Source: a virus
Direction: 5' to 3' (one strand)
Virus record (IMG/VR): IMGVR_UViG_3300030451_000695
Span: 1 to 21,360 of that record
DNA: 21,360 nt
The notes under the pieces: generated by a model
The model's database searches: none
What the model was told of the DNA's origin: nothing
What the model saw: only the letters and a program-made list of their open reading frames with translations
Program-made: the position numbers and the translations under genes
Shown: piece after piece, positions 468-8,385 of the stretch
Layout: the number at the start of each line of letters is the position of its first letter
Numbering within the stretch: the first letter of the stretch is position 1

Positions 468-652
468 TAGATGACAGAGTATGTATGCACTACGTCGTGG
501 ATCGATTGGAAGATTTGATTAATGAATGTAACCCAAGTGAGGGAGCCGCCGCAGGTCTTGCAAGGGTTCATAAAAGTTTATGTGAATTTAAAAAAGAATG
601 CATCTATAATCTAGGTGTGAACACAAGGATTAAACACAAAGGAGAAGACTAA
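464..652 (+). CDS. Small hypothetical protein, 62 aa
   Basis: I chose ATG 464 rather than the in-frame TTG 452, because GGAGG at 454-458 sits five bases before the ATG and the ATG overlaps the previous stop (ATGA). The protein begins MIDDRVCMHYVVDRLEDLI and looks wholly helical: an acidic N-terminal helix, a Gly/Ala segment (EGAAAGLARVHKSL) and a basic tail. It has three cysteines in no recognisable metal-site spacing. The stop overlaps the next start (TAATG). The function is unknown. Continuous coupling on both sides is the main argument that it is a real gene. Confidence 0.6.
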   Translation: MIDDRVCMHYVVDRLEDLINECNPSEGAAAGLARVHKSLCEFKKECIYNLGVNTRIKHKGED

Positions 653-900
653 TGATCAAAGAATTTTGGAAGAAGCTAACTAGCAAGCGTCAAAGTAACA
701 AGGCACTTACTCGGAAGGAGCAAGTCTTGGCTGAACTCGATCGAGGCCCAGGAACCGCTCGGCAACTCGCAGACCGAATGGGTTTGAAGCTGTCGATTGT
801 GCGAAACAATTTATCTCAGCTGCACAAAAAAGGTTTGATTCGGGACACTAATATAGACGCAGGCGCAGAGGGCGTTTGGGAGGTAGTCAAAGACGCATGA
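652..900 (+). CDS. Winged-helix DNA-binding protein
   Basis: An 82-residue protein with a basic N-terminus (MIKEFWKKLTSKRQ) and a recognisable winged helix-turn-helix. Residues about 21-64 read 'RKEQVLAEL', then GTARQLADRMGLKLSIVRNN, then LSQLHKKGLI, the usual helix 2-turn-recognition helix-wing arrangement of small MarR/IclR-like domains. The C-terminal EGVWEVV would form the wing strand. It is probably a transcriptional regulator or a DNA-structure protein of the early operon; no ligand domain is present, so DNA or protein binding is all it can do. The start overlaps the preceding stop, and its own TGA overlaps the ATG of the DpdA-like gene. Confidence 0.75.
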   Translation: MIKEFWKKLTSKRQSNKALTRKEQVLAELDRGPGTARQLADRMGLKLSIVRNNLSQLHKKGLIRDTNIDAGAEGVWEVVKDA

Positions 901-1577
901 TACACTACCACGGCACACCGATCACGCCACGTTCAAAACTATTAGCGATGGCGGGTAAACATTTTTGTGTTTCGTTTGCCGACAAAAGAGATGGAGATTG
1001 GTGTTTGTTAAACGCTCAATCTGTAATGTGGGACAACGGTGCATTCACGGCATTCACTAAAGGCGCAGAACCAGACTGGGTCAAATACTATGAGTGGTTG
1101 GAAGCACGTTTGTCTCATCCGCATTGGGCAGTTGTGCCTGATGTAATTGATGGTGAGCCAGAAGATAATCTGGAACTGATCAAGCAATGGCCTCACAGAA
1201 AAGATTGCAGTGCAATTGTGTGGCACATGGCTGAACCAGTTGATCACCTATTAAAACTGCTTGACCTGGGCTTCGGGAAAATTTGTTTCGGGTCAAGTGG
1301 GAAGTATTGGCAAGTGGGATCTGCTCCTTGGGAGAGAAGAGCAGACGAGGCATTCAATGCCATATCCAAACGTGGATCAATTCCTTGGGTGCATATGCTT
1401 CGAGGGTTGGCTTTGTCTGGAGACAAGTGGCCTTTTGCCAGTGCCGATAGTGCCAATGTGGCACGACATCATAATGAATTAAACATCTGTCCCGAGCGGA
1501 TGGCAAGGAGGATCGACGCAATACAATGCCCAGTAGGATGGGAGCTGCGTCCAGAACAAACGGAGATGATTATATGA
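897..1577 (+). CDS. DpdA-like / TGT-superfamily transglycosylase (putative 7-deazaguanine insertion into DNA)
   Basis: The start is taken as ATG 897, which overlaps the upstream TGA (ATGA). The in-frame TTG 876 lies inside the previous gene. The product is 226 aa. Landmarks of the tRNA-guanine transglycosylase fold appear in order: WDNGAF (Asp46), comparable to the TGT general-base motif D-S-G-G-[FY]; VVPDVIDG (Asp82), comparable to the substrate-recognition Asp region; ICFGSSG (about 129-135), comparable to the glycine-rich loop; HMLRGLAL (166-173); and FASADSANVAR (Asp184), where DpdA and TGT enzymes place the nucleophilic Asp. Known DpdA enzymes exchange guanine in DNA for preQ0 or related 7-deazaguanines, protecting phage DNA from restriction. 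This protein is far shorter than TGT (about 380 aa) and has no CxC-x2-C zinc site. Its partner, the transporter coupled at 1574, supports the assignment. DNA as the substrate is inferred. Confidence 0.62.
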   Translation: MIHYHGTPITPRSKLLAMAGKHFCVSFADKRDGDWCLLNAQSVMWDNGAFTAFTKGAEPDWVKYYEWLEARLSHPHWAVVPDVIDGEPEDNLELIKQWPHRKDCSAIVWHMAEPVDHLLKLLDLGFGKICFGSSGKYWQVGSAPWERRADEAFNAISKRGSIPWVHMLRGLALSGDKWPFASADSANVARHHNELNICPERMARRIDAIQCPVGWELRPEQTEMII

Positions 1578-2092
1578 AAAAGTATTTAGCATTCGCAGGA
1601 TTTGTTGCCACAGTTCCGGCAGCAAACTGGATGATTTCAAATGTTGGCACGGTCTGTATTCCAGACGGACCATGTCTTATACCTTTGGGCTTCGGGATCA
1701 CCGCACCCTCTGGTGTGTTAATGGTAGGAGCCGCACTGGTTCTAAGAGACTTGGTTCACGAATGGATGGGCGCGAAGTATGCTCTTGCCGCTGTCGTGAT
1801 TGGTGCAATCCTTTCTTACTTCTTGGCAGATCCATACATAGCACTGGCAAGTTTTATTGCGTTCTCAATATCGGAACTCTCTGACTTCTTTGTGTACGCC
1901 AAGTTAAGACAGAAGAATAAACCGTTAGCTATCCTAGCTTCTGGCGGTGTGGGTTCCGTTGTAGATAGCGTAGCATTCTTAGCCATAGCCTTTGGATCAT
2001 TAGCCTTTATAGAAGGACAGATCATAGGTAAACTTTTAATCAGTGCGTTAGCCGCTGCGGGATTGTATGTTTGGAGAAAGCGCAATGTTTAA
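1574..2092 (+). CDS. VUT-family (YhhQ-like) queuosine-precursor transporter
   Basis: The start is ATG 1574, which overlaps the DpdA-like stop (ATGA) and follows GGAG at 1562-1565; upstream in-frame ATGs lie inside the previous gene. The 172-aa protein is very hydrophobic, with about five or six membrane segments and a basic tail (VWRKRNV). Family landmarks include GAALVLRDLVHEWMGAKYA, FIAFSISELSDFFVYAKLR, and GGVGSVVDSVAFLAIAFG, matching the Vut_1/YhhQ family. In bacteria YhhQ carries preQ0/preQ1 across the inner membrane. In a phage next to a DpdA-like enzyme, the natural reading is that it supplies a deazaguanine base for DNA modification. No ATPase or ECF partner is encoded nearby, which fits the YhhQ type rather than ECF-dependent QueT. 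The family call is strong; the substrate is inferred. Confidence 0.85.
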   Translation: MKKYLAFAGFVATVPAANWMISNVGTVCIPDGPCLIPLGFGITAPSGVLMVGAALVLRDLVHEWMGAKYALAAVVIGAILSYFLADPYIALASFIAFSISELSDFFVYAKLRQKNKPLAILASGGVGSVVDSVAFLAIAFGSLAFIEGQIIGKLLISALAAAGLYVWRKRNV

Positions 2093-6849: not shown

Positions 6850-8385
6850 ATGTCATTAGCACAGAGAATGCTTGCGGCCTTTGAGGGATCGAAGGTTGCA
6901 TACGGCACGACTACAGTAGGAAAGATTGGTCGCAGCGGTAAAGCTGAAGCGGACAGTCGCATTGTACGTGAGCCGTTAACAGAAAAAATCATGCAGGGAC
7001 ACATAGAGGGCAAGCAGGGTATCGGGGCTATCCCGATCAACGAGGAAAACAAATGCAAGTGGGGAGCGTTGGACATAGATATCTATGATCTTGATCACAA
7101 CGAACTCCAGAAAAGAATAAACAAGCAAAAGCTACCTTTGCTACATTGCCGATCCAAATCTGGTGGGGCACATCTCTATTTGTTCTTGGAAAGATTCGAA
7201 CCTGCAAACGTGGTTCGAGAATACTTACAGGAGATGGCAGTATCTCTTGGTCATAGTGGTTGTGAGATCTTCCCGAAGCAAGACAAGATCCTTGCTGACC
7301 GGGGTGATGTGGGCAACTTTATAAACCTACCGTACTATGATGCAGAGTTACCGCAACGGTATTCCTTCAACGACAAGGTAGAAGCTGTGGAACTAGACGA
7401 GTTCCTTGATCAGATAGACAAGAGAAGAACTAAACTCTCAAGTCTGGAGAAGCTGCGAACCAAGAAGCAACGCAAACAGTTTGCGGATGGGCCAGTATGC
7501 ATGGAGCATTTGTTTCGTGACGGACCTAACTCGGAAGACCGCAACAAGAAACTGTTCATGGCAGGGGTATACAGTAGGCTGAAGCATACGGATGACTGGA
7601 AGCAACAGATGGAGACAATGAACCATCAACTGTTTACCACGCCCCTCGATGCCAAGGAAATGTTGGCTCTTCAGAAAAGTCTGGAGCGGAAAGAATACTT
7701 CTATACCTGCGAACAGGAACCGTTCAAGAGTTACTGCGATAAAGAACTGTGTATTTCCAGGCGATACGGAATCGGAGACGATACAGAACAAGCGGTGAAT
7801 ATCGGGAACCTTCTGATCCAGTTATCGGAACCACGTTTGTACTTTCTGACGGTGCAAGGTGAGAGGATCCAGATTAACTCTGAACAGTTACAGAACCAGA
7901 CGCTCTTTCAACGTGCGTGTATTGAACAGATACAGGTTGCTCCTCCGATCATGAAACCAAAAGCATGGCAGGCGTTACTGCGAAAGTTGCTAACAGAGTC
8001 TACAAAGCAAGAGGTGCCAGAGGAATTGACCCTGACTGGGGAGTTCAAGGAACTGCTACGCATATACTGCACCAGTAAGATCAGGGCTATGCACCCAGAG
8101 GAGATGATTGCGGGTAAACCATGGACGGACAACGAGGGATATACCTCGTTCACGATAGCAGGGCTGATGGAGTTTTTGCACAACCGTCGCTTCAAAGGTT
8201 TCACCAGAGCACAGGTGCAGGAGATTTTAAAACAAATGAATAATGATCAAGAGTGCCATGGGCACAGAGCGATAAATAAAGAAGACGGATCAAGGACCAC
8301 GATTCGAGTTTGGTGGGTTCCTGCTTTTGAAAATTTGGAAGTGGATCTGCCAATACAGGAGATAGATAATGACATACCGTTCTAG
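6850..8385 (+). CDS. Archaeo-eukaryotic-type (TOTE/AEP) primase with PriL-like Cys cluster
   Basis: 511 aa, ATG 6850 behind CAGGAG. The N-terminal AEP catalytic core shows motif I WGALDIDIYD (Asp75, Asp77), motif II SKSGGAHLYLF (His108) and the conserved CEIFPKQ and GNFINLPYY segments typical of TOTE-type and phage AEP primases. Further on, Cys217 (ADGPVC), Cys287 (YTCEQEP), Cys296 (SYC) and Cys301 (ELC), followed by RRYGIG, look like a PriL C-terminal-type four-cysteine (Fe-S or Zn) primase-priming domain, followed by a helical C-terminal part. It would make primers on the unwound template for the PolA-type polymerase. It ends in EIDNDIPF, an SSB-type acidic tip like that of the SSB-like protein upstream. 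It heads the main replication operon and overlaps the HTH gene by 17 bases. Confidence 0.85.
   Translation: MSLAQRMLAAFEGSKVAYGTTTVGKIGRSGKAEADSRIVREPLTEKIMQGHIEGKQGIGAIPINEENKCKWGALDIDIYDLDHNELQKRINKQKLPLLHCRSKSGGAHLYLFLERFEPANVVREYLQEMAVSLGHSGCEIFPKQDKILADRGDVGNFINLPYYDAELPQRYSFNDKVEAVELDEFLDQIDKRRTKLSSLEKLRTKKQRKQFADGPVCMEHLFRDGPNSEDRNKKLFMAGVYSRLKHTDDWKQQMETMNHQLFTTPLDAKEMLALQKSLERKEYFYTCEQEPFKSYCDKELCISRRYGIGDDTEQAVNIGNLLIQLSEPRLYFLTVQGERIQINSEQLQNQTLFQRACIEQIQVAPPIMKPKAWQALLRKLLTESTKQEVPEELTLTGEFKELLRIYCTSKIRAMHPEEMIAGKPWTDNEGYTSFTIAGLMEFLHNRRFKGFTRAQVQEILKQMNNDQECHGHRAINKEDGSRTTIRVWWVPAFENLEVDLPIQEIDNDIPF

Follow-up and report, generated by a model that had tools for sequence, protein, structure and literature searches.

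The stretch of DNA analysed, called here the window, comes from a virus and counts 21,360 bases (21 kb); the record may be a fragment. Near its left end, a gene at 897-1577 on the plus strand encodes a 226-aa transglycosylase resembling DpdA and TGT, which belongs to PHROG887 and carries two invariant aspartates, D46 (in DNGAF) and D184 (in SADS). It is followed by a gene for a 172-aa VUT/YhhQ-type membrane transporter (1574-2092, plus strand; Pfam Vut_1, PHROG4899). As read from the sequence, the two genes share an ATGA start/stop overlap at 1574-1577 (plus strand), so that their translational coupling is likely. In related loci (L002 to L006) and in Rhizobium phage RHph_N3_2, the dpdA and VUT genes likewise abut directly or overlap. 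A second ATGA overlap, at 897-900, joins the dpdA start to the end of an upstream gene for an 82-aa winged-helix protein (FaeA-like/MarR-like; 652-900, plus strand), which places the enzyme/transporter pair inside a tightly packed gene run. This winged-helix gene was found as a dpdA neighbour in the closest relatives only. Within the enzyme gene, plus strand, the WDNGAF codons (residues 45-50) lie at 1029-1046, and this motif corresponds to DSGGF, the general acid/base motif of TGT; the SADS codons (residues 182-185) lie at 1440-1451, and here the equivalent is the SADS found in Pfam DpdA, with D184 as the putative nucleophile. An earlier note on this DNA had listed the two genes, their overlap and the motifs WDNGAF, VVPDVIDG, ICFGSSG and ADSANVAR, and all of them are present at the positions given there.

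The earlier note had also reported that no folE, queD, queE or queC gene accompanies the pair. A profile search for QueC, QueD, QueE and FolE found none in the 21,360 bases, a result whose scope is the window rather than the whole phage. A search of GenBank for a near-identical phage gave no near DNA match to the window among 50,697 phage records. A marine host is plausible, because the DNA polymerase encoded in the window has its closest relatives (49-53% identity) in phages from the sea, Pelagibacter phages among them. Two other features were recorded. At the contig edge (1-207) lies the C-terminal end of a DNA methyltransferase (PHROG363), a second DNA-modification gene near the dpdA/VUT pair. 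In the replication module, a primase domain of the archaeo-eukaryotic type (PF22548, AEP-TOTE; 6850-8385) adjoins relatives of cyanophage Pam3 gp33 and gp34. A reading of the region as a defence system was dropped after a PADLOC search.

The family of the enzyme was then considered. It matches PHROG887, annotated as queuine tRNA-ribosyltransferase, with an E-value of 3.6e-39 over residues 1-192, and PHROG15826 only weakly (E 3e-3); no match was obtained in Pfam, including its DpdA (PF23859) and TGT families, nor in NCBIfam or PADLOC. With tblastn, relatives were detected in 104 phage records. One of these is the sole dpdA of Pantoea phage MED16, 34.6% identical to the window enzyme over 92%. 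The PHROG887 match and the MED16 relative place the protein, by sequence, in the DpdA/TGT superfamily. Positions invariant in 56 diverse homologues include D46 (DNGAF), D82, H110 and D184 (SADS), and no cysteine is invariant across these 56. In an alignment with TGT, DNGAF takes the place of the acid/base motif DSGGF. DNGAF and SADS also fall in register with DSGAF and SADS of Pfam DpdA PF23859, of which Sinorhizobium phage phiLM21 encodes a member, although the profile score is non-significant taken alone (probability 6.7%). By analogy, D46 is a putative general acid/base and D184 a putative nucleophile.

A classical tRNA TGT was rejected as an identity for this protein by the profile comparison, its length and, more weakly, the lack of an invariant cysteine. 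Alignment with hhalign against 13 host TGTs gave nothing significant (E 0.33 over 17 columns), and phmmer and profile searches of the PDB returned no significant TGT match. The protein has 226 residues against the 357 positions of the TGT model, with no TGT-like C-terminal region. Several alphaproteobacterial host TGTs (L172 to L178) were themselves found to be without the canonical zinc-site cysteines (e.g. SSCPAAN, SKCAASN); the zinc site is therefore a poor test of TGT membership.

An AlphaFold model built on the 56-row alignment was confident (pLDDT 92.5, pTM 0.88), and replaced a first model made from a shallow alignment (pLDDT 58), which was dropped. In a library of viral structures, all functionally named matches below an E-value of 1e-3 were queuine or queuosine tRNA-ribosyltransferases (query TM 0.53-0.67, E down to 7e-9). 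In the PDB, generic TIM barrels came on top (TrpA, best E 3e-3), and TGT was not among the top 50 folds. The AlphaFold and HHpred-type comparison proposed in the earlier note thus gave a divided answer, with viral queuine-enzyme folds on one side and, on the other, a TGT outside the top 50 PDB folds and an hhalign E of 0.33. Given these viral matches and generic PDB barrels, we filed the 226-aa protein, on sequence and model, as a DpdA-like member of the TGT superfamily and not as a TGT proper. Of the TGT/DpdA assignment made from the sequence alone, the superfamily placement has gained the PHROG887 match, the MED16 homologue and the viral folds; a direct match to classical TGT did not come with it.

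The transporter scored 51.3 bits against Pfam Vut_1 (cut-off 27.2), in line with the VUT membrane protein recognised earlier, and a simple hydrophobicity scan showed five hydrophobic segments. It did not reach the equivalog cut-offs that NCBIfam sets for transporters of queuosine precursors, with 44.5 of 50.95 bits for TIGR00697 and 32.2 of 252 for PRK11212. In this family, E. coli YhhQ/QPTR moves preQ0 and preQ1 and a Chlamydia member moves queuine, and substrate specificity is not readable from sequence (PMC11130926). VUT matches are rare in phages, being present in just 76 of 50,697 phage records.

The earlier note had proposed a survey of whether the two genes co-occur across related contigs, and this was carried out. 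Enzyme relatives were taken from viral contigs and bacterial genomes, and every open reading frame was scanned with purpose-built profiles. The loci are the best 80 matches per scan, out of 593 enzyme-family and 343 transporter-family members, and are not an unbiased sample. Among these best matches, 67 non-redundant viral loci had at least 1.2 kb on both sides of the enzyme gene, and 57 of them carried a VUT gene on the same strand within 1.2 kb (28 downstream, 29 upstream, none on the opposite strand). Starting from the transporter, again among best matches, a DpdA-type gene lay within 1.2 kb in 55 of 55 non-redundant viral VUT loci; the partner belonged to PHROG887 in 37 cases, to PHROG15826 in 17 and to PF23859 in one. 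Chance adjacency of enzyme and transporter is excluded, because dozens of divergent contigs show the same pairing. The enzyme family is not strictly dependent on the transporter, as an adjacent VUT was lacking in 10 of the 67 viral loci and in 23 of 36 genome loci. A hydrophobicity scan of the loci lacking VUT revealed no substitute transporter, except for one hydrophobic ORF of 62 aa in L052. One viral contig without VUT carries two dpdA-like copies close together (L162:5001-7117).

Linkage to VUT as a general property of any DpdA was rejected with PF23859 DpdA as a control, where an adjacent VUT was found in only 3 of 37 viral members; in this the PF23859 proteins differ from the window's family. 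On the enzyme tree, VUT presence is clustered, with at least 12 changes of VUT state. The transporter tree splits into two groups across a branch longer than 2 changes per site, both paired with the PHROG887 enzyme family. With transporters this divergent beside a single enzyme family, the pairing has probably originated at least twice, as judged from these trees. The phiLM21 transporter, whose partner is a PF23859 DpdA, is nested in the PHROG887-linked group. Hosts of the paired loci range from Rhizobium to cyanobacteria and Actinomycetota.

In a few relatives, synthesis genes stand where the transporter would be. Two loci (L017 and L018) have no VUT, and the genes that come after dpdA there are queE (TIGR04508, 345 bits, cut-off 240) and queD (TIGR03367, 93.9 bits, cut-off 89.25). 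Their dpdA genes are surrounded by primase, helicase and polymerase genes resembling those of the window, and both loci are nested with full support in a VUT-bearing clade of the enzyme tree. A QueE relative occupies the equivalent place in L113. In another locus (L154:3942-5687), VUT, a 182-aa QueC (PF06508) and dpdA are consecutive overlapping genes, an arrangement that would add to the transporter the final step of preQ0 synthesis alone. In Ensifer and Metarhizobium, a queE-queD-queC run ends with a VUT gene whose product is about 52% identical to that of the window, and in other Rhizobiales VUT comes after queC. The replacement by queE-queD and the host que operons therefore tie the transporter to the 7-deazaguanine pathway independently of its name. 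Among rhizobial loci, L084, L085 and L086 to L089 showed queE-queD-queC-VUT or queC-VUT runs with a VUT about 50% identical to the phage VUT. In Caulobacter phage DMCA, a 98-aa QueD-like gene with a weak PTPS match lies immediately before dpdA (L035:11705-12001).

In three complete isolate genomes that bear the pair, those of RHph_N3_2, Pam5 and RHph_X2_30, we found no FolE, QueD or QueC, nor a QueE of the TIGR04508 type. Full-length QueC was present in 22 of 24 host genomes carrying relatives; the two hosts without it (R. subbaraonis and D. ginsengisoli) both harbour a VUT prophage. A preference of VUT prophages for preQ0-deficient hosts was not significant, with 7 other VUT loci in QueC-positive hosts (exact p ~0.13). 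On four host contigs (G032:C26, G042:C24, G045:C49 and G046:C11), a second TGT-like ORF of about 430 aa was seen together with queD, and in G032 and G042 with queC too; these are possibly bacterial dpd DNA-modification islands.

Many relatives contain a third gene, of 80-95 aa, placed between VUT and dpdA or beside dpdA. A profile built from eight members and searched in 2.46 Mb of loci found 37 copies (among them L009:7729-7983, L033:13307-13531, L034:12681-12908 and L064:5753-5983, with 33 more), all 37 within 1.5 kb of a DpdA-type gene, a figure that holds partly by construction because most loci were fetched for holding DpdA or VUT. A separate search of all phage records found the gene in four of them, always together with a PHROG887 dpdA, and a protein-level count found it in 4 of 9 viral loci without VUT. 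The window contains no copy. Six of six members tested matched PHROG37496, which has no assigned function, and one gave a weak match to GTP cyclohydrolase I (E 5e-4). The family has conserved CP and (F/L/Y)(Q/H)E motifs, and when the family is aligned with host QueF, its CP coincides with the CP motif there and its FQEDL with FHEDC (probability 48%, E 1.8e-4 from one comparison). These similarities suggest a minimal QueF-like T-fold protein, which may tailor the base.

Taken together, we read the two genes as a salvage module for a 7-deazaguanine base, in which the transporter would feed a DpdA-like exchange in DNA, and give this reading a probability of about 0.75. The VUT protein, in the host inner membrane, would import a base of the queuosine pathway (preQ0, preQ1 or a close relative), or alternatively would enlarge the host's pool of the 7-deazaguanine base. 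The DpdA-like enzyme would then swap guanine in DNA for this base by the double-displacement mechanism of TGT, with D184 as the nucleophile on C1' and D46 as the general acid/base; protection against host nucleases would be the benefit. This salvage-and-insert reading is well supported. The comparisons establish the two genes and their families, the linkage in both directions and the exchange of the transporter for synthesis genes in a relative; the substrate, the direction of transport, the DNA target, the roles of the aspartates and the benefit against nucleases, restriction included, are inferred. The import-and-swap proposal of the earlier note is thus borne out in part: that a DpdA-type enzyme and a transporter of 7-deazaguanine precursors are functionally coupled is strongly supported by the two-way linkage, the queE-queD exchange and the host que operons.

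The enzyme could instead act on tRNA, the imported queuosine precursor serving to modify host tRNA and tune translation, with no DNA base changed. Among superfamily members, those that act on tRNA are indeed the best known, and the viral fold matches that have a name bear that of tRNA-ribosyltransferase. Yet phage MED16, whose DNA contains dADG, has no dpdA other than the homologue (PMC8306585), and the short length, the want of an invariant cysteine and the missing TGT-like C-terminal region set the window enzyme apart from tRNA TGT. Moreover, TGT was already present in 17 of 18 host genomes searched, so that a second tRNA enzyme would be redundant. We consider action on tRNA unlikely. Nor do we favour, rating it as quite unlikely, a scheme in which DNA is modified with a precursor made by the host, VUT mainly lifting the host preQ0 pool or having another purpose, for instance queuine import. 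The frequency of QueC in the hosts and the many relatives without VUT would fit such a scheme, but the 55 of 55 reverse linkage and the queE-queD replacement tie VUT to the precursor supply of the enzyme. Finally, that the genes are adjacent by hitch-hiking in one phage lineage, without cooperation of their products, is highly improbable: loci were picked by similarity, close relatives inflate the counts and VUT presence is clustered on the enzyme tree, but both gene orders occur, VUT state changed at least 12 times, very remote VUT lineages and three enzyme families are involved, and the host range is wide.

The salvage-and-insert reading can be set against known systems. Phages with DpdA and no precursor genes were found to be numerous in a 2019 survey, which already proposed that they rely on a host or imported precursor (PMC6884629), and phage homologues of YhhQ have been published (PMC6884629, PMC6266253, PMC8310023). 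What is new here is the strength of the dpdA-VUT coupling. We found no prior description of the two-way linkage, the queE-queD substitution or the PHROG37496 partner in the literature searched, the coverage of which is incomplete, so that an earlier description is possible. MED16, one of these DpdA-only phages, resembles the window in having a DpdA-type gene and no preQ0 biosynthesis genes. It differs in that its dpdA neighbourhood has no gene annotated as a transporter, and its enzyme has 261 aa against 226; only the enzyme gene of the window overlaps a transporter gene. LC-MS/MS detected dADG in MED16 DNA at about 0.13% of G, which hardly affected restriction, most enzymes tested cutting the DNA (PMC8306585). 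Where modification is dense, as in phage CAjan, protection from restriction has been demonstrated (PMC6884629).

Like the window, Pantoea phage Vid5 and Enterobacter phage EC151 combine 7-deazaguanine genes with a YhhQ/Vut_1-type transporter, in their case for preQ0/preQ1 (PMC6266253, PMC8310023), but they encode most or all of folE-queD-queE-queC, whereas the window has salvage alone, and between its VUT and the one in EC151 identity is only about 30%. The isolates closest to the window are Rhizobium phages RHph_N3_2 and RHph_X2_30 and Pseudanabaena phage Pam5, which carry the same pair (VUT 56-59% and enzyme 46-49% identical). Their genes are annotated merely as hypothetical, transglycosylase, DUF165 or VUT family, and no report on their DNA bases was found in the literature searched. 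Phage phiLM21 likewise pairs its PF23859 DpdA with a VUT, 59% identical to that of the window. The mini-DpdA proteins of PHROG15826, as in Arthrobacter phage Aoka (annotated DpdA-like) and Mycobacterium phage GreaseLightnin, are also paired with VUT. They form a family separate from that of the window enzyme, measure about 200 aa, and have in common with it the pattern DNG, PDV, F.G[GS][ST], WVHM and DSxDG.

The fact that related phages almost always keep both genes together suggests that many phages scavenge the base rather than make it. This bears on a point left open by the 2019 survey, in which YhhQ was uncorrelated with any phage group (PMC6884629), as small DpdA families and VUT show a near-obligate linkage. 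More tentatively, and at less than even odds, import and insertion may be a separate and widespread route of hypermodification, in which short DpdAs of at least two families, PHROG887 and PHROG15826, are fed by a dedicated transporter and the base is in many phages tailored by the PHROG37496 T-fold enzyme, possibly giving a 7-deazaguanine new to DNA. The linked T-fold gene is also a lead towards a new enzyme of base tailoring. In the DpdA-only phages for which modification has been measured, it amounts to 0.02-0.13% of G or is absent (PMC6884629, PMC8306585). A shortage of precursor would explain this low modification, and predicts a higher density in phages that bear the transporter: the DNA of pair-bearing phages should hold more of the modified base than that of 7-11, Orion and other DpdA-only phages, and would need extracellular precursor for it. 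If this is true, the chemistry of phage DNA would hinge on what neighbouring microbes release.
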